IMG/VR virus record: IMGVR_UViG_3300034095_000093
Location: 1-40,767 of that record
Source: a virus
Reading direction: 5' to 3' (one strand)
DNA length: 40,767 nucleotides
A model generated the notes under the pieces. The model had not been told where the DNA came from. It was given only the letters and a program-made list of their open reading frames with translations, and ran no database searches. The stretch's first letter is position 1, and the number at the start of each line of letters is the position of its first letter. The position numbers and the translations under genes were made by a program. Positions 7,815 through 20,623 of the stretch are shown piece after piece.

Positions 7815-10646
7815 ATGGCGGATATCCAACTGCTACGACGCGTAGTAGCCCCTAACGACGGCTGGTACTGCATATTCTCTTTGCTCAATGGCAAAGCACC
7901 GCGACAAGACCACTTCAAGACTCTTGAAGAACTACAACAAGAAGCTGTGAATCTGGTTGCTGAAGGGCGTGATGCCTACTTTAGCTTAGGTAAGTTTATA
8001 ACTAAAGAAAACCGCGAAGCTGAGAACTGCGGTTGGATGCAAGCATTCTTTCTGGACATCGACTGTGGCATCGACAAAGCTACGCCTGACAAGTACGGTC
8101 GTATCAAGGGCTACGTAGATCAAGCTACGGGCATGCAAGCACTCAAAGACTTGTGCAAGGCTCTGAGCCTGCCACGTCCCACGATTGTGAACTCTGGTCG
8201 TGGGTGGCATGTGTACTGGCCATTGACTGAGGCAGTTGAGAAAGATAAGTGGTTGCCTGTGGCCGAGGCGTTCAAGGCGCTGTGCGCCAAGCACAAGTTT
8301 ATTGGCGATCCTGCTGTGCCAGCGGATGCTGCACGGGTGTTGCGTATTCCCAACACTACTAACTTTAAGGGTGGGGCAACCGTCACGTTGATGAACGAGA
8401 CCGCGCCTATTTCGTTTGAAGACTTTGCCAAGTTGATGGGGCCAATAGCACCGCCCAAGCCAATCCATAGGCCAGCACAGTTAGATGAGTTAACACGCGC
8501 ACTGATGGGCAACCGCCAGTCTCGCTTCAAGGTCATCTTTGATAAGACCCTAGCGGGCAATGGTTGCGAGCAGTTGCGCAACATCATGGAGAACCAGAAC
8601 GACATCGAGGAACCTCTATGGCGGGCGGGGCTGTCCATCGCCAAGTTCTGTGTGGACGGCGGCAAGGCTATACACATCATCTCCAAGCAGCATGACAAGT
8701 ACGACCCGCAGAGAACCGAGGCCAAGGCTGATACGGTTAAGGGTCCCTACACTTGCGAGACATTTGATTCTCTAGCACCGAACATCTGTAACAACTGCCC
8801 GCACAAGGGTAAGTTCAAATCACCTATCGTCTTGGGTCACGAGATTGCCAAGGCCGCTGAAGGCACGGTCATTGAGTACGTTGTGCAGGAGGACAAGGGG
8901 GCTGAGCCTGTGCCAGCGTTTATTGTCCCAAAGTTGCCTAACCGCTATTTCCGTGGCAAGACTGGCGGTATCTACAAACACATGAAGGAGGACGAGGATG
9001 GCGATGCAGCCGTAGCTCTCGTCTATGAGTACGACCTGTTCGTGACCAAGCGTCTGTTCGATCCCGGCCAAGGTGAGACAGTGCTGATTAGATTGTCCCT
9101 GCCCCGTGATGGCGTTAAAGAATTCTCACTAACGCTGGTCGAAGCGCTAAGCAAGGACGAGCTTCGCAAGGCGCTGTCGTTCCATGGCGTGATTGCCTTA
9201 CAAGTGCAGATGCTCTTGATTCTCGACTATTTGGTGCAATGTGCAAAAGAACTACAAGTAACACAAGAGGTTGAAATGATGAGACAACAATTAGGCTGGG
9301 CTGACGAAGACCGGAAGTTTATTCTGGGTGACCGCGAGATCGGCGCGGACTACATACGCTATAGCCCACCGTCTAAGGCCACCCGTGACGTGGCGCATGC
9401 GCTTCGTCCTATGGGCTCGTTTGATGAGTGGAAAGAGATCATTAACGTCTACGACATGCCCGGCTTTGAGCCACATGCGTTTGCCGTATTCACTGCGTTT
9501 GGCGCACCTTTGATTAAGTTCATGGGCATAAAGGGCGGCATCATCAACCTGATTAACAATCGCTCTGGCACAGGCAAGTCCACCATTCTGCAGGTGATGA
9601 ACAGTGTATGGGGTCACCCCGATGAGCTGATGATCCAGTGGCGTGACACACTAAACGTTAAGCTGCACCGCATGGCTGTGATGTGCAACCTACCCTTGGG
9701 CGTGGACGAGATCACTAAGATGTCTGGCGATGACTTCTCAGACTTAGCGTATAGCGTTACGCAGGGCGCACCCCGCCGTAGGATGAAGTCGTCCACCAAC
9801 GAGGAGCGCGAGTCTCAAGGCTATTGGGCGACCATGATGGTGGCTACATCCAACGCCAGTATGACTGACAAGCTGGAGTCATTGAAGTCCACTGCCGAGG
9901 GCGAGCTTATGCGTCTGATGCAGTACCGCATCGACCCAACTAACAACCTAGATAAGGCATCTGCCAAACACATCTTCGGCAGACTGCAGAGTAACTACGG
10001 GCATGCTGGTGGTCCGTATGCGCAGTTCTTGGTGCAGAACTTGGAGGAGGTGATTGATGCAACCCTCAAGCTACAGGTCAAACTGGACAAGGCAGTAAAC
10101 ATCGAGACACGTGAGCGCTTTTGGTCGGGCATGGCCGCGGCTAACCTAGCGGGCGGGATGTTTGGCCACAAGCTAGGTTTGCACGATATTAACTACAAGC
10201 GTGTGTTTGACTGGTCAGTCGAGGAGATTAAGTCTATGCAGGGCTCCGTGCGTTTGAGCTTCAACGACTACGCTACCGTAGTTGGCGAGTTCTTACTTAA
10301 ACACAACATGAACATCCTTGTGGTCAACAAGTACAGCACGTCCAAGGCGGGCATAGCTGCCGCGCCTCTGCTGACCCCACGCGGTGCGCTGATCGTACGC
10401 TACGAGCCAGACACCAAGAAGATATTTATTGTCCGTCAGGCACTTAAAGACTACTGCGCCTCCAAGCAGATCACATTTACGGACTTGCTGTCCGGGCTTA
10501 ATAGTACAGGGGCGTTCATCTCAGAGGTGCGTACCCGCTTGGACATCGGCACAGAGATTACTGCGCCTCCTGTCGTAGCCTTGGAGTTTGATGCTGACCT
10601 GCTTGGTGTTGAGCCTGACACGGCCATAACGGGCGATGCGGATTGA
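7815..10646 (+). CDS. AEP-type primase fused to DUF927-like helicase
   Basis: 943 residues. The N-terminal third is an archaeo-eukaryotic primase (PrimPol) domain: catalytic D-x-D in FFLDIDCG (about residue 80), the SGRGWHVYW motif, and PADAARVLRIPNTTNFK. A cysteine cluster follows (CETF ... CNNCPHKGK), possibly zinc-binding. The C-terminal half is a DUF927-like helicase module with Walker A NRSGTGKST (about residue 582) and Walker B-like LPLGVDEI (about 627). It would synthesise primers and unwind the fork for the family A polymerase, replacing the TOPRIM-DnaB type of T7 gp4. ATG 7815 is preferred over GTG 7800; CTGGA lies 7-8 bases upstream. An overlapping small gene follows. Confidence 0.9.
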   Translation: MADIQLLRRVVAPNDGWYCIFSLLNGKAPRQDHFKTLEELQQEAVNLVAEGRDAYFSLGKFITKENREAENCGWMQAFFLDIDCGIDKATPDKYGRIKGYVDQATGMQALKDLCKALSLPRPTIVNSGRGWHVYWPLTEAVEKDKWLPVAEAFKALCAKHKFIGDPAVPADAARVLRIPNTTNFKGGATVTLMNETAPISFEDFAKLMGPIAPPKPIHRPAQLDELTRALMGNRQSRFKVIFDKTLAGNGCEQLRNIMENQNDIEEPLWRAGLSIAKFCVDGGKAIHIISKQHDKYDPQRTEAKADTVKGPYTCETFDSLAPNICNNCPHKGKFKSPIVLGHEIAKAAEGTVIEYVVQEDKGAEPVPAFIVPKLPNRYFRGKTGGIYKHMKEDEDGDAAVALVYEYDLFVTKRLFDPGQGETVLIRLSLPRDGVKEFSLTLVEALSKDELRKALSFHGVIALQVQMLLILDYLVQCAKELQVTQEVEMMRQQLGWADEDRKFILGDREIGADYIRYSPPSKATRDVAHALRPMGSFDEWKEIINVYDMPGFEPHAFAVFTAFGAPLIKFMGIKGGIINLINNRSGTGKSTILQVMNSVWGHPDELMIQWRDTLNVKLHRMAVMCNLPLGVDEITKMSGDDFSDLAYSVTQGAPRRRMKSSTNEERESQGYWATMMVATSNASMTDKLESLKSTAEGELMRLMQYRIDPTNNLDKASAKHIFGRLQSNYGHAGGPYAQFLVQNLEEVIDATLKLQVKLDKAVNIETRERFWSGMAAANLAGGMFGHKLGLHDINYKRVFDWSVEEIKSMQGSVRLSFNDYATVVGEFLLKHNMNILVVNKYSTSKAGIAAAPLLTPRGALIVRYEPDTKKIFIVRQALKDYCASKQITFTDLLSGLNSTGAFISEVRTRLDIGTEITAPPVVALEFDADLLGVEPDTAITGDAD

Positions 10647-10877: not shown

Positions 10878-10907
10878 AGCCCCGCCTAAACAGCGGGGCT
10901 CTTTTTT
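10878..10907 (+). terminator. Intrinsic terminator ending the early/replication arm
   Basis: A perfect 8-bp GC-rich stem AGCCCCGC/GCGGGGCT with a 7-base loop is followed by C and six T (10902-10907). On the other strand the hairpin is not followed by a T-run, so it works mainly for rightward transcription. It lies exactly where the two convergent arms meet, and the T-tract touches the stop codon of the leftward giant gene. Confidence 0.92.
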
Positions 10908-13900
10908 AATCAAATTTATCGAAGTAGTTAGCCTTCTTCTCAGCGGGCTTGGAGTCCTTCTTCAGCTTGTCCACGTAGTCTTGCGTCACGATATGACGTA
11001 GCTTGTCGTCGATGTACAGACCTTGGTCTGTCTTCGCAGACTTCTCCATCTTCTTCTCAATAGAACTGATGATGCCGTCTACATCTATAGCAGCGGTTGG
11101 ATGCTTCTCGTTAAACTTTATGATCTGATCTAGGGCTTTCTCCACACCATCAGCATCATTAGTCATGAAGTTCAAACCGAACAAGTTCAGTGCTTCCGTG
11201 CGTTTCTTAGTGATGCCTTCAGCCTGACCCTTCTTCGTAATATTGAAGTACTGACGCTCAGCTAGTTCAGATGTACGGAAGCCTAGTGACTGCATGGCTA
11301 GATCAAATGGGCCGAACTCGTCGACGATCTTGTCGCCCGCCATGTTAGTCGCGCCCTCTTTGCTGTACCTATACGCTACTAATGGCTGACGAATAAACGC
11401 AGGCATCATCGCCTCAAGTGCGCGATCGCCGTGGCCGGTCTTAAACAAAGTGTACGCACGTGCACCCTGTTGTAATATTCCAACAAACGGGCCAAGAGCC
11501 TTAGTAATCGAGTCGTTGAGCGCGGTCTCAGCATCTGTATTCTGGCGCATGTCTGGAATCCACATGCCGTCTAACTTGAGCTTGCTTGCGAAGTCGTAGC
11601 CCAAAGCATTGAATGCACCGCGGCCAAGCAACATGCCAGCTTCCTTGCCGAGGGTGTTAACTGCCCAATTCATAAACTCCAGCTCAAAGTCTAAACGGTC
11701 TTCGTCGTCTGAATCTAAACCAAAGTTAAACACTGCTTCAATAATGGCCGCGATGGTTGAGAAACCCCAGAGACCAGTTACTCCTGACAGGATACCGGCT
11801 GTGCCCATGATTCCAACAAAACGTGCACGTGCTTCGCGTCGGTCGGCTTTAGTCAAACCTTTAAACGAGTTGTATGCGTTGCGTGCTAAGAAGAACGTCA
11901 TCTGCTGTGGGAACTGCTTAAACTGCAGGATCACACGAGCAACCGGGTGTTGCATGTAGCGGGGCTTGTTTGTTGCAGAGTAATCAAACATAGACCGGTG
12001 GGTAATATCCTTAGCCTCAGCAATTGCTTCAGCAAACGCCTGTTGTTGGTTTGGATAGTTAGCACGTTTTTCCATGGCCGCACGAAACGAAGACATGGCT
12101 ACCACTTCGCGGTTTATGCGCTCGGCGTGGTGGAACAAGAATGAGATCACCTGCATTGACTTGTTTGGGATGCCAGAATAATCTTCGGTTGGCTTAGAGG
12201 CCAGACCTGACTGATCGTATGCAGCCGTGATGTCAATTAGGCCGTCGGCTACAAAGCGTTTGTATGCGGCCTGCTCTGCATTAGTCAGTGAGTTTGAACG
12301 CTGTAAAGACGGGGTCAACAAGCGGGAATCTCGGATACGCCCGCCAGTCTCAACACCAAAACCTGTAAGCCCAATTTGCCCAATAGTCTTAGACACCTGC
12401 ATCATCACGTTGGCAACTGCGCGGGTGTAACCCATATTAGGGTTTGCCCTAATCTGCTGACCCACAAGTGTAGGCACACCAATCATCATGCCGCCCAAGA
12501 CGTTGGTCACTGCAGATGCTACAGACGTCAGGTAATAGATAAAGCCAATGTTTGAGAAGTAGCTAACAAATGCGCCATCATCAGGCGGGTTGAGCATGGC
12601 GTTTAAACGTAGCTCAGTCTCTTTAATAAAATCGCGTAGCGTATCGTTTTCAGCAGCCAGCACTGGGTCGTAGTTTGCGCCAGCGGGTGTACGGCGTTTG
12701 ACTTGCGAACGGGCAGCGTCCATCTGAGAGAACATCTCAGGTGAGTACTCAAAGCGAGCCAACTGATACGCCATGTTGAAGGAGGTGTTAGCAAAGTTAC
12801 GCAATGCGTCTTGCGAAAAACCTTCCACACTGTTACGGTGAATAAACTGATTGCGCATGCTGCGGTCAGGTTGGTTCTGCAAGAACGTCTGGTAGAAACT
12901 GTCCTTTAATTCCTTCTTGCGAGCATCAGCATCTACAGTTGATAACCCTGCGAAGTTGGCTTTATCTACGGCAGCAAAAACTTCTTTTAGGAAAGCTGAC
13001 TGCTGTGCGTGGAAGTCCATTTGTTTGGCGTAGTCGTTACCAATGTTGTCGCCAATAGTTTGCGACAAATACGGATCACGCTCTAAGCGTTCTTCAACGT
13101 GCGCATCGCGGGCACCTTGGGACTCAAACATGTAGTACTCACGGCCCGCGCCACGACCAATTTGATACCAGAAGCGGCCATGACGCATCAATGGGAAGTA
13201 AGGGCCTTTGAGTGCGCCCTTCTCAAACTCATTACGAATTTCAAGGATCGTTGCCTCTGATACACCAAGCTGGCGCATCTGAATGATGCGTCGATTCATC
13301 AAGCGTTTGTAGTTTGAATACCTACGTTGGAAGAAGTCACGCACTTCTTTGTATATGGCTTTGGCCTCTGGGTCGAGGGCGTTCCAGTCAAGCATCAACT
13401 GCACATTAGCGTTGCGTTGCTGTGCATTAGCTTTGGCTGGGTCGACCTCGGCGATAGTTGCAGAGTGCATGACTGCACCCAACTTACGGGACATGTCAGG
13501 GTCTTTGGATTGCAAGAGTTCCCAACGACGGGAAATTTTTGCAGACTCCTCAAGGATGTTGCTCTTGCGGGCAAGGAAGTCCTCGGTTACTTTAATGAAG
13601 TTACTAATCTGCGGAATACGGCCAGCTACCAAGTCATCAATCTGGCGAAGCGTCAACACACCCAAGAAGGCAGGGCGAAGCGCAGCGTCCATGTTTCTAA
13701 ACTCGCGCTTAACTTGGTTCCAGTTGCGTGTCTGCATCCAACGACGTATGGTCGATGGCTGGTTCGGCATACCCACGGGCATGATCTTGGGTTTTCTTTT
13801 CCCAGTAGCCATAGCTTTTGGGCCGGTGGTTACTGTCATGCCTTCGATGGACATCGTGCCCGCCATCATTGCATCAGCAGCAAGCATGGCCTCTGCCATG

Positions 13901-16900
13901 ACGTTGCTTTCGTAGCCCTTCTTTACGTTGAAGAGCCTACGGATAGCGTCTGTAAAGCGGTTCTGTAACGAGTAAGGCGCTTCCTTGTAGCGGAAGCCGC
14001 GTAGTCTTGCTTGAAATACTGGGTTAGTCAAAGCTTCGGACACGAACTCGTGCAGGTCATTAAGACCGTATATAGCGCCAATGTCAGCGCCTTCTTCCTG
14101 AAGCTTTGTCTTAGAGTATGTGTACAGCTCCATCAGGCGATCGTAGCCCTGACGTTGGAAGCCGCTGAGTCGCTCTGGGTTATCAAGCAAATGAGATGCG
14201 GCTGCGTGAATAGTCTCGTGCAGTAGCAAGTGGTTGGTCAGCTTGCCTACACCGCGGCGCATAACAATAGAGTCAGTTGCAGGATCGTACTTGCCGCTCC
14301 ATGCGTACTGTGTGTTGACCAGAGTAAGTAAACTCTGAAGCACTTGTTTGTTAGACTCAGATGCATTCATCTGGTCCATAGATGATTCAATTTGCGCCAG
14401 CGCAGTCAGTACATTACGCAACTTGCCGGAACGCAGCTCAGCAATCAGCGTGCCTTGCTGGTCGACTGGGTAGATTGCCGTGACTACATCACGCATAGCG
14501 TCGATGCGTTCTTGCAGTGACTTAGGAATGTTGGGGTCGTTGTTTAACGGCTCCATCGTATCCGCATCAATTATGCGAGTCTTGGCTGTAAACCCAGTAT
14601 CAAGCAGACGTTTAGCAAGCTCCGCATAGTACGGGTTACTCTTCATCTGCACCATCAGGTCTAGTGCGCCGCGTGTATCGCCAGCCTCCAGCATGCGAAC
14701 CATGTCTGGGTGTACTTCAGTAAGCATCTGAAGTGTTGGCAGATTCTTAGTCGATACTTCCACGTCGGGGGTGGCTTCACCTTCACCAGTAGTGGTTTCT
14801 GCCAAACGCTCAGAGATGCGTTTAAGCTTGCGTTCGTTTTTCTTTTCTACAATTGTGGCCCGCTCTTTAGCTTCTTTTGCGAGCTGCTCTTCATAACGCT
14901 TAAGAGACTCGTGATAGTCTGTTACTGCTTTGGTATAAGCAACGTTGGCTTCATGTGTTTTCTTGTGTTCCGCAACCATCTCGTCAAGAGTAGCCAGAGT
15001 GCTCTCAGACAGATTCTGTCTAATCCAGTCGCGGAAGTTATTGGCGTAGCGTCCGCCTTCACCAAAGTAACCGTAGTTGGCATTGAAGTACTTAGGGTCT
15101 ACTTCGTAGTAGGCTAAGTCATACGCCAAGGCAGACATAGCCTCACCAAACGTTTTACGGTTCAAGTTGTTTAGATACGTCATAGCCGCAGACATCTGCG
15201 GTGACATCTTTACGCCAGCATTGAATGCCTGCTTGATAGCCAACAACGCGCCGCGTAGTTTAGCATCTGCAATCACGTGCTCGTTCTCTGTCACACCTTG
15301 ACTAGGGCGACGTGGCTTGCCTTCTGCGGTCTTGCCAAACTTTTGTGTTACTGCCGTACCAGTAGTGATACGTTCTGTATACACACCGGACTTGGGCATG
15401 CCAACGCCAGTATCTCTGCCGGATAGCTGGCTGACGTACTCACGCACTTCATCACTGAACTGCTCAATGCCACGGCGGGTCGTGAGGTCAGGGAGACCAG
15501 CTTTAGTAAACAGGCGGCCTTGCTCTTCGGGTGACGCACGGCGAAGCGCATCCATCAACGCTTTAAACGAATCAGCACCGGCTACACGCGCAGTCAAATA
15601 TTTGAGCATTGTTTTAGCGCCGGGACTTGTTGTCTCACCCGGTGCAGCAATGTCGTACTGCAGCATTACTTTAGCTGCAACGTTCTTAGAACTGCTGTGA
15701 CGCTCTTGCTCTGTTGGTGTTTCTGCAATAGGTTGGATAAGGCCAAAGAAGTCTTTAACTTGCTGACCTTCGTCTGTCTGCGCTACGTGCTCAACACTTA
15801 AGTCAGGAGCCCTAATAGGCTCACCTTTCTGGTCGTATTGAACGGGTTCAGGCGTAGCGGGCGTTTCTTCTTCAACTTCAGCGCCAAACTCTTCAAAGTC
15901 TTCGTCAAGCGGAGTACGGTCCTTGCGTTCTTTCTTAGGCTGCGCTTGCTTCTGTTGCTTTTGCGCAACGGGCTTACCGAACATGTCGGTCTGCTCTTGC
16001 GTGGACTCTACCGTTGTGGGTACAGCGGTTTCTTTTTTAGGTTGAATAGCGGGGGCTGTTTTACCAGACGCAACTTCGGCTCTAGCCGCTTCTAAATCTC
16101 TACGAACGCCAGCCAGTTCGGTCCGCAGTCCTTTGGTTAACTCCACCTCTTCAACGCCTAGTGAGCTACCAACTTTTTGGGTTTCTGCTCTCTCTAGCCG
16201 GTTAGCGAGATCGGCTTCTCTGTCTTCCAGAGTGAGCACGCGTTCAAGCGGAGTCATGGACGGCGCAGCAGCCTGATCTTTACCTTTGTTGCGCTTCTCA
16301 ATCTCAGCCGACAAACGGGTGGCTTCCATTTTGGCCCGTGTAGCTTCGTCCGCTGGCTCAGCAAACACATCTTCCATGCTCTCGGCTGGCGCGCCTTCTT
16401 CGGGTGGTTTGTTAAACAAGTTGCCCTGCATACCGCGGGCAGGGCGTTGCAACTGCTCAATGGCTTGGTCAATCTGTTCGGCCAGTCTAGCCACATGCTG
16501 CTCAGCCAACTGCTGACGAGACCTAACTGCTTCACCTGCTGTTAAGCCGGGGCCTGCTTGTGATATGGCCCAGTTCTCGTCGTAGCCGCCAGCTTGCAGC
16601 TTGGCGAAATAACGTTGTTTTGCAGCTTCTAAGTTGGCAACGGCTTTAGTGACATCACCGCCCGCCATAGCCATGGCATCACGAGCCATTTGAGCCGTAC
16701 GCTTTATCGTACCAAACATGTCGCTCTGCATGCCCCTAGCTTCACCACCGCCTTGAGATGCAAGTGCATCAAGCACAGGCGTGCCGTCAAACATAGGGTT
16801 CTTGAGTTGTCTAATTAAGTTGCCGTCTTTGATAAGCCCTGCGTTGGCATCTACGACATCATTCAGGTTCTGCGACACAATCTTCATTGTGCGCATGTCA

Positions 16901-18081
16901 GCATCTGTTGGGCGCTGAATACTAATTAGATCAGCAAGCTCAGTGCGCAACTCGTCGTACTGACGGCGGAAATCTTCTAGTGCACCCGGTTGCTGTCCCG
17001 CTCTTGTATCAGCGTCTGTAGCATCCTGTCCAGTAGAAACCACTCCATCTGATTCAGGTCTAGTAATTCGTCCGGCGGAGCCTCCTGCACCGGGCTTGCC
17101 AGCCAAGCTAGTGCTTTCTCCACCTGCTGGGGGGATAACTTGTCCAACATCTTCTTCCTCCGTGAGTCGGTCTAAGACGGACTTGCCAGTCTTCTTCTCA
17201 TCACCTTTAAGGTAACGATCAAGGCCTTCTTTAACCCCCTGAACAGTTCCACCGAAACCGCCGCCAACTATAGCGCCCTCAAGCATGGCTGTGCCAAGCT
17301 CTTCGTAATCAACTCCGCGTTTAGTTCCGGCAGAACCAGCTATGTTGGATGCGCCCTCTTCAAGTGCTTCAGTTCCAGATTGGATACCAACCTGAGCTCC
17401 AACTCTAGAAGCTGCTGTTTTGCCCGGGGTTGCGCCTTTAAATAAACCTTTTGTGGCAAATCTTTCAAGGCTAGTTTCAATTACAGCACCGGTTGCGGCT
17501 GCAGCAACATCTCCAACTGTGGCCTGCTCAATTGTTTTCTCGTCGTTCTTTAAACGCTCGTTAAGGATTTCGTTAGTTCGTGCAGCAACATACGCTTTAG
17601 GCATTGTTACCGCAGCTACCATGTCAGGCACTGACGTAATAATTCGTTCCGCGATGAAGGGAACTAAATTAAGCGGGTTAGCTGGTATGTCACTAAGTTT
17701 GGTGCTTGGCGTGTACCCGATGTCTTTAGCGTAATCTCGTGAACTGTTAGCCCAGTCTTGCATGGAATCAAGGGCTTTGTTTTCTTTTTCAAGACCTTCT
17801 TTACCTTGTATGCTTCGACGCGCCATATTAAGCATCCCGAGGAATGGGGTAGCCTTGTTTATAGCTTCGTCAATAACGCCAAAAGGTTTAGCTACTCTTG
17901 AGTACGCTTCAACCCCACTAGCGCCTAGTTCAACTGCTCGAGCAGCAGTGCCTTTTAGAGGATTGCTTGTTTCCTCTGGCTCGGCTTTTTTCTTTTTTGC
18001 AGGTTCGTCAAACTGATCGAAGAAGTTTCCAGACGGTTCTTTTTCTTTCGCAGTATCAAACTGGTCGAAAAAATTGGCCAT
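10906..18081 (-). CDS. Giant internal virion (ejection) protein with zincin metallopeptidase motif
   Basis: 2391 residues; the largest gene and the last in the late operon. The start carries two copies of NFFDQFD (residues 3-9 and 19-25), and the very C-terminus is NYFDKFD. About residues 40-300 are Ala/Gly-rich with hydrophobic segments; about 350-1100 are charged, Gln-rich and coiled-coil-like. An HExxH motif, HETIH at 1288-1292, is followed by EFVSEA with Glu at 1345 and 1349, the gluzincin-like layout. Hydrophobic stretches lie near 1840-1870 and 2094-2117. The region with PVARVILQFKQFPQQMTFFLARN resembles large polyvalent phage proteins. By analogy to T7 gp16 and P22 gp16/gp20 it is expected to be ejected into the cell; the peptidase could open the envelope or act on host proteins. 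It starts 1 base after the previous stop, with GGGGGA as SD. Confidence 0.85.
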   Translation of the reverse strand: MANFFDQFDTAKEKEPSGNFFDQFDEPAKKKKAEPEETSNPLKGTAARAVELGASGVEAYSRVAKPFGVIDEAINKATPFLGMLNMARRSIQGKEGLEKENKALDSMQDWANSSRDYAKDIGYTPSTKLSDIPANPLNLVPFIAERIITSVPDMVAAVTMPKAYVAARTNEILNERLKNDEKTIEQATVGDVAAAATGAVIETSLERFATKGLFKGATPGKTAASRVGAQVGIQSGTEALEEGASNIAGSAGTKRGVDYEELGTAMLEGAIVGGGFGGTVQGVKEGLDRYLKGDEKKTGKSVLDRLTEEEDVGQVIPPAGGESTSLAGKPGAGGSAGRITRPESDGVVSTGQDATDADTRAGQQPGALEDFRRQYDELRTELADLISIQRPTDADMRTMKIVSQNLNDVVDANAGLIKDGNLIRQLKNPMFDGTPVLDALASQGGGEARGMQSDMFGTIKRTAQMARDAMAMAGGDVTKAVANLEAAKQRYFAKLQAGGYDENWAISQAGPGLTAGEAVRSRQQLAEQHVARLAEQIDQAIEQLQRPARGMQGNLFNKPPEEGAPAESMEDVFAEPADEATRAKMEATRLSAEIEKRNKGKDQAAAPSMTPLERVLTLEDREADLANRLERAETQKVGSSLGVEEVELTKGLRTELAGVRRDLEAARAEVASGKTAPAIQPKKETAVPTTVESTQEQTDMFGKPVAQKQQKQAQPKKERKDRTPLDEDFEEFGAEVEEETPATPEPVQYDQKGEPIRAPDLSVEHVAQTDEGQQVKDFFGLIQPIAETPTEQERHSSSKNVAAKVMLQYDIAAPGETTSPGAKTMLKYLTARVAGADSFKALMDALRRASPEEQGRLFTKAGLPDLTTRRGIEQFSDEVREYVSQLSGRDTGVGMPKSGVYTERITTGTAVTQKFGKTAEGKPRRPSQGVTENEHVIADAKLRGALLAIKQAFNAGVKMSPQMSAAMTYLNNLNRKTFGEAMSALAYDLAYYEVDPKYFNANYGYFGEGGRYANNFRDWIRQNLSESTLATLDEMVAEHKKTHEANVAYTKAVTDYHESLKRYEEQLAKEAKERATIVEKKNERKLKRISERLAETTTGEGEATPDVEVSTKNLPTLQMLTEVHPDMVRMLEAGDTRGALDLMVQMKSNPYYAELAKRLLDTGFTAKTRIIDADTMEPLNNDPNIPKSLQERIDAMRDVVTAIYPVDQQGTLIAELRSGKLRNVLTALAQIESSMDQMNASESNKQVLQSLLTLVNTQYAWSGKYDPATDSIVMRRGVGKLTNHLLLHETIHAAASHLLDNPERLSGFQRQGYDRLMELYTYSKTKLQEEGADIGAIYGLNDLHEFVSEALTNPVFQARLRGFRYKEAPYSLQNRFTDAIRRLFNVKKGYESNVMAEAMLAADAMMAGTMSIEGMTVTTGPKAMATGKRKPKIMPVGMPNQPSTIRRWMQTRNWNQVKREFRNMDAALRPAFLGVLTLRQIDDLVAGRIPQISNFIKVTEDFLARKSNILEESAKISRRWELLQSKDPDMSRKLGAVMHSATIAEVDPAKANAQQRNANVQLMLDWNALDPEAKAIYKEVRDFFQRRYSNYKRLMNRRIIQMRQLGVSEATILEIRNEFEKGALKGPYFPLMRHGRFWYQIGRGAGREYYMFESQGARDAHVEERLERDPYLSQTIGDNIGNDYAKQMDFHAQQSAFLKEVFAAVDKANFAGLSTVDADARKKELKDSFYQTFLQNQPDRSMRNQFIHRNSVEGFSQDALRNFANTSFNMAYQLARFEYSPEMFSQMDAARSQVKRRTPAGANYDPVLAAENDTLRDFIKETELRLNAMLNPPDDGAFVSYFSNIGFIYYLTSVASAVTNVLGGMMIGVPTLVGQQIRANPNMGYTRAVANVMMQVSKTIGQIGLTGFGVETGGRIRDSRLLTPSLQRSNSLTNAEQAAYKRFVADGLIDITAAYDQSGLASKPTEDYSGIPNKSMQVISFLFHHAERINREVVAMSSFRAAMEKRANYPNQQQAFAEAIAEAKDITHRSMFDYSATNKPRYMQHPVARVILQFKQFPQQMTFFLARNAYNSFKGLTKADRREARARFVGIMGTAGILSGVTGLWGFSTIAAIIEAVFNFGLDSDDEDRLDFELEFMNWAVNTLGKEAGMLLGRGAFNALGYDFASKLKLDGMWIPDMRQNTDAETALNDSITKALGPFVGILQQGARAYTLFKTGHGDRALEAMMPAFIRQPLVAYRYSKEGATNMAGDKIVDEFGPFDLAMQSLGFRTSELAERQYFNITKKGQAEGITKKRTEALNLFGLNFMTNDADGVEKALDQIIKFNEKHPTAAIDVDGIISSIEKKMEKSAKTDQGLYIDDKLRHIVTQDYVDKLKKDSKPAEKKANYFDKFD

Positions 18082-18082
18082 C

Positions 18083-19558
18083 TTATCCCCCTAGAATTCT
18101 TGCTGCTAAACCCGGTTGTCTGTATTTTGCATCAAATTCAGCCGCTAAAGAAGGATTTGCTCTTAATGCCTCAATAGCTGATGGGGGCGGCCTAAGTGCG
18201 CCACCACCAACTGGCGTATCTGGCGCAACCACTGTTGTGCCTACGTTTTTAGATACATCATTACCTTTTTTCTTACGAATTTCTTCGAGCCTTGTATCAA
18301 TATCGGCCATAGCCTGTATTGATTTCTCGTCTTTCTTGCCCGCTAAAGTAGAACGTCTGAGCTTGAGCATAGCGCCTTCTTTATCGGCATCTACTAACTT
18401 CTCGATGGCAATAGCTCTTTCTTGAGATTTATCGGGGCCGGTGTAGCGAATACCCACGCGGGCTTCGTTGGCTTCGCGATACTGTTGCATAAACGCATCA
18501 GCAGCTTCGGGTCCTTGGGTCTTGCGAATCTCAGCCGCTGTAGCCATGACGCGCTCAACCTCACCGGGCTTGTTCTGGCCTTCACGTTGCACCTGATGTC
18601 CCTCACGGGCAACGCCAGCTTGGATATTGGCGATCTCAATACCCTTCTGAAGCTCAGCGCCCTTCATATTGACTTCAGCCAACATCTTCTGCGCGTTCTG
18701 TCTTTGCGTGTCGTACTTGTCAAACAAAGAAATGGCTTCTTTGGTCTTGCCGTCGTCTCGTGCTTGTTGTGCAGCCGCCAAAGTCATTTCAGACTGACGC
18801 AGGGCGCGGTTGGCATCACGCTCTTCCTTTTCAAACTTCTGCATTTCAGAGCCAAATGCCGCGCCCGCCGCAGCAAGACCCGGCACAATGGAGCCAAGGC
18901 CCTTGCCTGTAGAGGGCTTAGCTACAACGGCTTGGGCCGCAGCTAATAAGGCGTATCCAAGGTTCTGATCTTTCCTACCAGAGAGTTCTCTACGCTCTTT
19001 GGCAATATCTTCAAGGTACGGGGCCATTCGGTCTTCGCCGTACAGTTTATTAACATACTCACGCTGTGAAGTTATGCCTGCCTCACGCTCTCCAATAGAC
19101 GCGGGTTGTGGAATATTAGAAAATGCTTTCTCTAAGTAGTCAGCGCTTGATGGACGACCACCGGCTGCAAACGCAACAATGCCGCCTTCTGCGTAGTCAT
19201 CATCAGATGTTGGCATTCCTGCCAACCCACCAGAGGCAGCTTGCATCTCAGGGCTGGGCATAGCGGGCGGGGCTTGCTGAGCTTGCGTCATGACTGGCTG
19301 GCCCATCATGCCTGCCAAACCCGCAGATTGATCTGGAGCAACAGCGGCTTCAGCCAACGAGGGCTGTTCACCAGATGGACCACGAGCTTGCTGTGCCATG
19401 GCCATGCGGTCAGATTCCTTCAGCAACTGCATAGCGCGAAGGGCGCTGTATGCGTCTATGCTTTGATCTTGTACAGGCTGGCCCATCAGCGCGGCTGCTA
19501 ACTGTCCGCGGTTGTTCTTATACCTATCAGCAAGTATGGAGGCCTTGTCAATTCCCAT
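18083..19558 (-). CDS. Internal virion protein, coiled-coil
   Basis: 491 residues. The N-terminal 100 residues are Ala/Gln/Met-rich and contain PSLAEAAVAPDQSAGLAGMMGQP. A YAEGGIVAFAAGG segment follows (about residues 122-134). The middle holds a hydrophobic Ala/Gly segment (LGYALLAAAQAVV, IVPGLAAAGAAFGSEMQ), and then comes a long charged coiled coil (about 235-420). This pattern, a membrane-active segment plus coiled coil, is typical of podovirus ejection proteins. It sits between two other candidate ejection proteins. No enzymatic motif seen. Confidence 0.78.
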   Translation of the reverse strand: MGIDKASILADRYKNNRGQLAAALMGQPVQDQSIDAYSALRAMQLLKESDRMAMAQQARGPSGEQPSLAEAAVAPDQSAGLAGMMGQPVMTQAQQAPPAMPSPEMQAASGGLAGMPTSDDDYAEGGIVAFAAGGRPSSADYLEKAFSNIPQPASIGEREAGITSQREYVNKLYGEDRMAPYLEDIAKERRELSGRKDQNLGYALLAAAQAVVAKPSTGKGLGSIVPGLAAAGAAFGSEMQKFEKEERDANRALRQSEMTLAAAQQARDDGKTKEAISLFDKYDTQRQNAQKMLAEVNMKGAELQKGIEIANIQAGVAREGHQVQREGQNKPGEVERVMATAAEIRKTQGPEAADAFMQQYREANEARVGIRYTGPDKSQERAIAIEKLVDADKEGAMLKLRRSTLAGKKDEKSIQAMADIDTRLEEIRKKKGNDVSKNVGTTVVAPDTPVGGGALRPPPSAIEALRANPSLAAEFDAKYRQPGLAARILGG

Positions 19559-19567
19559 GATTATTCC

Positions 19568-20623
19568 TTAGACCAAGTTGTTCAGGGCTAATGCGCCAAG
19601 ACCGCCGCCTTTAGACATAGCCACACCGCCGTTGGCCATGCCCGCAAGCTTACTGATACCAGCAGCGCCAAGACCTAACGACATAATGTTCTGCGCCGAG
19701 GAAGGAGGAGCCTGATACAAAGCCGAGCCAGTCTGAGTCAGTGGTGCGCCACGGATAATGTCGGACATAAAGCCGAGCTGCTTGTATGGGTAGTTCTGGT
19801 AGTTTAAGAAGTCTTGATACTTAGTATCAAGGTCTCTTTGCATCTGCGCTTGCTGCTGCAGGCCATATTGGTTCTGCAGTGCGTTGATGCCCATATTCTG
19901 CTGGTACTGAGCGCCACCCAAGTTGCCAAGTGCATTTGCGCCAGTCAGTGCTGTTTGCAGGCCTTGGAGACCCAGACCCGCACCAAACTGACCTTGTTGC
20001 GCGTTCAATTGTGCGGCGTTTGCTGTTGCAGCTTGTTCAGCGTTAAACTGACCCATACCTTGTTGATAAGCGGCTTGTTGGCCTTGCGCAAGAATGTCGT
20101 TCTTTTGACGAGCTAGGTTACCTGCGGCTTGCGCCCGCATAAGGTAATTACCACTGCCACCAAACGCGTTAGAACGAGCAGCTTGAGCGTTCATTCCTTG
20201 TTCGGCAATAGCTGCTTGACGTTGAGCATCCGCTTGTTGGCGTGCAACCACATTAGCCATGTACGGAGACATGTAGCTCTCAGCCATGCCGGGGCTAGTA
20301 AACGACTTAGTTTGATACGGGTTGTACGTAAAGCTAGTATTGAGTGCGCCAAGACCCGCTTGTCCAGCCAAAGCAGTTGCATCTTTTAACTGAGGGGAAG
20401 TCTGCATCATTGCAGCATTTTCGTACGACTGCATCTGCATAGGCGCAAACTGCGCGGTGCGTTCCCCTTGGTACTGCATGTAGGGGTTAGTAGATGTATC
20501 TGTTAACGCCTGCGCTTGACCAAGCACCTGTTGTGCGTAGGGCGCAATCTCCGGTGCAAAACCTATTTGATTTTGCTGGACTTGTGTTGGGTCAGAGTAA
20601 CCAAGTTTTGGATCGTATGCCAT
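19568..20623 (-). CDS. Ala/Gln-rich internal virion protein
   Basis: 351 residues with very high Ala, Gln, Asn and Gly content and long uncharged helices (QQADAQRQAAIAEQGMNAQAARSNAFGGSGNYLMRAQAAGN...). A short hydrophobic end (IMSLGLGAAGISKLAGMANGG) could insert in membrane. Composition and position match podovirus ejection proteins of the T7 gp14 or P22 gp7 type, which are small, Ala/Gln-rich and ejected first. It has AAGGA 6 bases before the ATG. No sequence homology that I can assert. Confidence 0.75.
   Translation of the reverse strand: MAYDPKLGYSDPTQVQQNQIGFAPEIAPYAQQVLGQAQALTDTSTNPYMQYQGERTAQFAPMQMQSYENAAMMQTSPQLKDATALAGQAGLGALNTSFTYNPYQTKSFTSPGMAESYMSPYMANVVARQQADAQRQAAIAEQGMNAQAARSNAFGGSGNYLMRAQAAGNLARQKNDILAQGQQAAYQQGMGQFNAEQAATANAAQLNAQQGQFGAGLGLQGLQTALTGANALGNLGGAQYQQNMGINALQNQYGLQQQAQMQRDLDTKYQDFLNYQNYPYKQLGFMSDIIRGAPLTQTGSALYQAPPSSAQNIMSLGLGAAGISKLAGMANGGVAMSKGGGLGALALNNLV

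Follow-up and report, generated by a model that had tools for sequence, protein, structure and literature searches.

What does a phage gain by repeating one short peptide at the ends of one of its largest proteins? The question is raised by the IMG/VR virus record IMGVR_UViG_3300034095_000093, which we analyzed over its whole stretch of 40,767 nucleotides (the window; 40.8 kb, the record being no excerpt of a larger genome). As a preliminary description of this DNA had stated, the window encodes on its minus strand a 2391-residue protein, hereafter the giant, that carries two NFFDQFD peptides at its N-terminus and NYFDKFD as its last seven residues. We propose that these peptides, or tags, are probably docking motifs that bind a receiver at the C-terminus of the protein encoded just upstream, joining consecutive ejection proteins, and that a small exported protein of prophages bearing the same tags probably serves as a periplasmic decoy for superinfection exclusion.

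A recurrent N-terminal tag and the end of the upstream protein

NFFDQFD opens many unrelated large phage proteins, mostly in two copies. A search for relatives recovered many loci that resemble each other only over the first ~30 residues (MANFFDQFD...NFFDQFD), in proteins of very different lengths. A search for NFFDQFD in other phages, recommended in the preliminary description, proved productive: the back-translated motif matched at least 119 stretches of the viral collection, compared with 4 for the reversed motif. The loci of this class were collected by exact motif, and the counts taken from them refer to the matches listed. Among these, nearly all copies of NFFDQFD lie near a start codon, flank an N-terminal enzymatic-looking domain or end a small protein. 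Exactly two tag-like copies are found near the start in 79 of 94 tagged proteins, with an expectation of 0.046 copies per 230 residues calculated from elsewhere in the same 94 proteins. A stop-anchored NFFDQFD pattern gave no matches, and short-peptide tblastn in phage records, a search of low sensitivity, returned few tagged proteins.

The spacing and number of the tags vary. In loci L047, L049, L055, L085, L091 and L102, one tag stands on each side of an N-terminal domain (lysozyme-like or of the GNIDLNNRPVV... type), so that the copies are ~97-190 residues apart and the close tandem is absent. The giant ORF (open reading frame) at position 8541 (minus strand) of L247 carries two nested tag classes (LQPFSGKLD, GPWTNY, GPWSQY, LKPFDGELD).

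That tags frame both ends of the protein is true of the window and of a few close relatives (NYFEQFQ in L001 and L002, NYFDQFH in L004), and the C-terminal tag is absent from the more distant relatives L005, L022 and L006-L008. Conservation of the ends among homologues is split, the N-terminal module being recurrent and the C-terminal tag confined to close relatives. Judged from these sequences, tags at both ends are an elaboration of a few close relatives, and the general rule is two N-terminal copies.

The gene directly upstream of the NFFDQFD giants ends in a conserved module of ~35 amino acids (...PP.AI.AL..NP.LA.QFDAKYG.GAAA.YLG), the predicted receiver. A hidden Markov model (HMM) of this module was trained on 8 prophage loci and tested on 76 non-redundant loci for which the tag had been the sole search criterion. 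Among the matches listed, it detected the receiver upstream and on the same strand in 72 of these 76 independent loci; it lay at most 300 bp away in 68 of these loci and was C-terminal in all but one. In control loci with other tags it scored in 3 of 44, all belonging to one similar tag class. The window itself has a single clear match, at the end of the 491-residue protein encoded next to the giant. The preliminary description had suggested that the tags at the two ends may share a binding partner in the ejectosome or cap. An ejectosome partner is well supported, the upstream receiver being the predicted one, and we found no support for a cap.

Among the window's own relatives, tag and receiver change jointly: L001 and L002 combine NFFEQFD/NFFAQF tags with the receiver FDAYYG and the C-terminal NYFEQFQ, L004 has NFFDQFD with FDAKYG, and L003 has lost both tag and receiver. 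The joint change of C-terminal and N-terminal tags suggests that, within this small clade, the former is a genuine third tag. L003 is a 56% identical relative, in which the giant starts with MAYSIELPDGTLVEDIPDGVTPEQAKAKI in place of the tags (L003:8951-9060, plus strand) and the upstream protein ends in KKTIKFNEIK; the two are possibly another tag-receiver class, or the start another N-terminal module. No relevant report on tag or receiver strings, or on such docking in ejection proteins, was found in the open-access literature.

An exported protein that copies the tag, and the tag-receiver code

NFFDQFD-like tags also form the C-terminus of at least seven small proteins that have a signal peptide and contain four cysteines. 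In Pseudomonas LKA5-like relatives, the corresponding protein ends in KPWEEY, and their giant opens with two copies of KPWEEF. At 3863 residues, this giant (LKA5 gp58) also shows that the protein of the window, although large, was overrated when described as one of the largest of phages. A wider search gave 92 loci, in most of which an 81-residue conserved domain is followed by a highly variable tail. In many prophages, a giant is encoded nearby in antisense, and the tail corresponds to the N-terminal tags of that giant: the tails and their own giants reached a pair score of 1897, whereas none of 10,000 permutations exceeded 1297. The small gene is antisense to the giant in 39 of 40 pairs, most of the giants having two tag copies, and 49 of 56 small proteins have a signal-peptide-like N-terminus. 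At matched identical residues, the codons of tail and giant agree at a frequency of 0.484 (0.513 expected from codon usage), which argues for a match maintained in the protein and against recent copying of the DNA. A DNA-level duplication of the tags was accordingly rejected.

The model of the small protein combines a confident helical domain with a low-confidence tail, as would be expected of a displayed peptide. The domain barely varies with the tag class (tail-domain r 0.21), and L174 and L175 share the same domain with different tails. The family has no Pfam or PHROG match among the proteins scanned, no sequence match in the PDB and no significant Foldseek match. Prophage-encoded, envelope-directed and located in or beside ejection genes, its members qualify as putative superinfection-exclusion proteins. 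One of them, at L165:18897-19320 (plus strand) in Pseudomonas phage LKA5, is conserved yet unannotated in the LKA5, E220, phiC725A and F1Pa records. In the LAxEFGL class (L169, L175, L236), the tail tag lies between two cysteines, as if in a disulfide loop. Delftia-type small proteins (L212-L223, L225-L226) have ~90 extra residues between domain and tail, and those of L227-L233 and L257-L259 appear to be truncated copies.

Across phages, we distinguished ~14 tag classes, each paired with its own receiver on the upstream protein. The classes were named by eye and their names were not used in the statistics, which were computed on objectively chosen ORFs, as GC-rich loci yield wrong-frame ORFs. 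The similarity of small-protein tails correlated with that of receivers (Mantel r 0.80), a value reached in none of 2000 permutations (null maximum 0.105). The partial correlation remained 0.80 after removing the similarity of upstream bodies and small-protein domains, by which phage relatedness is partly controlled. Near-identical upstream bodies with different tails had unlike receivers, and unlike bodies with the same tail had like receivers, in all such pairs. When the tag was defined solely as the internal repeat of the giant, r was 0.72 (partial 0.71, null maximum 0.21). When annotated phages were searched from the receiver, the tag class that it predicted was present on the following gene in all four records read (Pam1, a Bradyrhizobium prophage, EBPR podovirus 2 and 8P); the receiver protein of cyanophage Pam1 is annotated as an injectosome translocase.

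A natural swap is seen between L168 and L199, which are near-identical upstream. The giant of L168 carries NFFDQFD/NYFDQFD, that of L199 carries DLLDEFGI twice, and the last ~45 residues of the otherwise closely similar upstream protein have been replaced. The L199 tail still has the old tag in decayed form, NFFGQFD, ahead of a new DLFDEFD, so that giant tags, receiver end and small tail have all changed together. Two-tag tails were found in six small proteins, L199 and five others, and in six of six the first tag is of another class and the last of the phage's own class, as judged by the giant tag or, for L186, by the receiver.

Proposed docking and decoys, and competing explanations

In the mechanism that we favor, the giant would be the last member of the ejection-protein set and its two N-terminal tags would act as short linear docking motifs, bound by the receiver, a small domain at the C-terminus of the ejection protein encoded upstream. 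The two proteins may be loaded together into the virion, held joined while the periplasmic ejection channel forms, or both. The usual pair of tags would be consistent with two receivers for each giant (2:1), the proportion seen in the octamer/tetramer cores of T7 and PhiM1. The tag-receiver classes, numbering at least 14 in phages, would be interchangeable. The small protein of a prophage would show its own tag on a disordered C-terminal tail. Displayed in this way, it would most likely engage the receivers of same-class phages as they enter and block their ejection. The sequences themselves establish the tags, the receivers, their co-variation, the mimicry of the tag and the natural swap; binding, its stoichiometry and periplasmic blocking are predictions. 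Because exclusion by decoys would favor rare tags, frequency-dependent selection could in turn drive tag diversity. A bolder extension, which we hold tentatively and which could easily be wrong, is that tags and receivers form a diversifying self-recognition code under such selection, with the multi-tag decoy tails as a growing record of excluded phages.

Several observations weigh against this mechanism. A recognizable receiver is missing from 4 of the 76 NFFDQFD loci, the Pam1 giant has a single clear tag, and the comparison of two tags with the PhiM1 tetramer/octamer core is a suggestion only. The small gene of L168 has no evident promoter. In many loci the receiver adjoins the small tail, and linkage can inflate their correlation, although such inflation does not reach the giant-receiver correlation described below for distant pairs. 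Finally, the small gene is absent from the window and from many tagged phages, from which it follows that the tags have another primary role than exclusion.

This last absence also suits a narrower explanation, in which the upstream protein loads the giant into the procapsid through the tag, with no role after ejection, and the small protein does something else. An assembly role would suffice in phages without the small gene, the window included, and encapsulins, which have the HK97 fold, are known to load cargo through peptides with short linear motifs. We nevertheless consider packaging alone unlikely, since a purely intravirion role leaves unexplained why, locus after locus, an exported protein carries the tag of its own giant.

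It is more doubtful still that the small protein is a trap whose folded domain captures incoming tags, the tail being an auto-inhibitory copy. The cognate tag does adjoin the conserved domain, but the domain hardly follows the tag class, L174 and L175 having the same domain and different tails, and the tail is of low confidence and unstructured in the model. Slightly less probable again is the binding of the tags to a host envelope protein in the manner of colicin TonB/TolB boxes, with the small protein competing for this host factor. The tags are indeed short motifs in flexible N-termini, and an exported protein would presumably meet a periplasmic factor; against this, giants that are near-identical bear many different tag classes among the phages of one genus, Delftia, and the tag varies in step with the end of a protein that the phage itself encodes. 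This receiver co-variation disfavors both a host-binding box and mere repeats. The least probable account, that tag, receiver and tail form one DNA cassette whose correlation reflects linkage and not function, draws on the adjacent and convergent receiver and small-gene ends of many loci, but it is contradicted by the persistence of the internal-repeat correlation (r 0.81) in loci with >2 kb and unrelated genes between the start of the giant and the small gene, by the same tag-receiver pair in unrelated proteins and in a cyanophage, and by codons that tail and giant do not share, and it does not explain the peptide common to both.

If docking and decoys operate as proposed, they would account for mutual recognition between consecutive ejection proteins in many short-tailed phages, for the highly variable and modular ends of these proteins, and for the blocking of relatives by one class of prophages. 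The sequences would provide a readable code predicting which phages a lysogen should exclude, and they would offer a collection of ready-made peptide-receptor pairs with differing specificities.

The giant, its gene cluster and known systems

The preliminary description had called the giant an ejection protein with a metallopeptidase-type motif, HETIH...EFVSEA. The motif is in place: Glu1345 lies 53 residues after the second histidine (His1292), and all of 16 homologues, some as low as 19% in identity, retain LHExxHA, the EF pair and Glu1345. The profile of this region matches the internal virion protein 9sfn_G (E 4e-22), the tetrameric ejection protein of PhiM1 (8vb2_A, E 8.2e-12) and the N4 vRNAP (E about 1e-6), and HExxH with a downstream glutamate also occurs in the solved ejection proteins matched. 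An AlphaFold2 (AF2) model of moderate confidence (mean pLDDT, the predicted local distance difference test, 64.5) places HETIH on a helix. Plain Foldseek with this model gave no significant match, only noise; structural ranking placed PhiM1 (Z 7.7) and N4 vRNAP (Z 7.2) ahead of a known zincin fold (Z 5.1). As profile and structural ranking both point to PhiM1 and N4, the HETIH region is by its sequence relatives a zincin-like domain occurring in other ejection proteins, with proteolysis, the cutting suggested earlier, staying putative. In PhiM1 gp48 (PDB 8vb2 chain A), the zincin-like profile with HExxH matches residues 380-521, whereas the PhiM1 paper (PMC11440229) labels residues 268-528 endolysin/exotransglycosidase-like.

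Replication genes lie on the plus strand of the window and structural genes on the minus strand (Table 1). The giant exceeds the thresholds for LPD39 (78 bits, cut-off 27) and for tail-700 (439 bits, cut-off 100, covering positions 1-680 of the 681 of the profile). With LPD39 and PLxRFG/tail-700 it is filed among the polyvalent phage proteins, and it combines an LPD domain with a peptidase-type HExxH domain in one chain. A neighbor related to DNA ejection proteins (PHROG 4287), the C-terminal PLxRFG/tail-700 domain and the zincin-region matches to the solved proteins 9sfn_G and 8vb2_A bear out its assignment to podophage ejection proteins. We conclude that it is, on these domain matches, a polyvalent ejection protein. 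A single-sequence search with the giant and its two neighbors found no direct solved relative.

Table 1 Features of the giant and of its gene cluster in the window.
Feature	Position	Strand	Basis
Giant polyvalent ejection protein, 2391 residues, last gene of the structural/ejection cluster	10906..18081	-	ORF, domain matches
N-terminal tag 1, NFFDQFD, residues 3-9	18055..18075	-	Sequence
N-terminal tag 2, NFFDQFD, residues 19-25	18007..18027	-	Sequence
C-terminal tag, NYFDKFD, residues 2385-2391, close relatives only	10909..10929	-	Sequence
HETIH zincin motif, residues 1288-1292	14206..14220	-	Sequence, homologues; on helix in AF2 model
Glu1345 of EFVSEA, candidate third zinc ligand	14047..14049	-	Invariant in 16 homologues
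LPD39 domain, residues 1462-1610	13252..13698	-	Pfam PF18858, E 8.5e-22
Tail-700/PLxRFG domain, residues 1626-2362	10996..13206	-	NF032893, E 2.5e-131
491-residue upstream ejection-cluster protein, bears the receiver	18083..19558	-	Gene adjoining the giant, receiver match
C-terminal receiver PPPSAIEALRANPSLAAEFDAKYRQPGLAARILGG, predicted tag-binding site	18086..18190	-	Receiver HMM, E 1.9e-11
351-residue protein related to DNA ejection proteins	19568..20623	-	PHROG 4287, E 2e-8

In its domain architecture the giant belongs to a familiar type, and the novelty lies in the tag-receiver code and in the mimic of that code. Polyketide and peptide synthases dock through a beta-hairpin domain and a short linear motif, in many specificity classes. 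The likeness, an analogy only, is that a terminal module pairs with the short motif of the next protein; the orientation and the proteins differ.

The polyvalent proteins (Iyer et al. 2017, PMC5512222; NF032893) share with the giant LPD39, a zincin-like peptidase domain, tail-700 and the character of a huge injected protein, but tags and receivers are not described in the portion of that paper available to us. In podophage ejectosomes (PhiM1 tetrameric and octameric ejection proteins, PMC11440229; T7 gp15/gp16; N4 vRNAP), consecutive ejection proteins are likewise joined in one core, one of those of PhiM1 being tetrameric and one octameric, and PhiM1 gp48 and N4 vRNAP have the zincin-like domain in common with the giant; in the parts of the accounts available to us, no swappable tag-receiver code is described for them. 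For the decoy, the precedent is SieA of P22: this prophage gene prevents ejection, and escape from it comes through changes in gp16 and gp20 (PMC10883804). Here too, prophage exclusion would be aimed at ejection proteins. SieA family members are inner-membrane proteins, whereas the small protein appears to consist of a signal peptide and a soluble four-cysteine domain, and we do not claim membership for it; its difference from SieA is that a small exported protein copies the docking tag of the phage that it would target.
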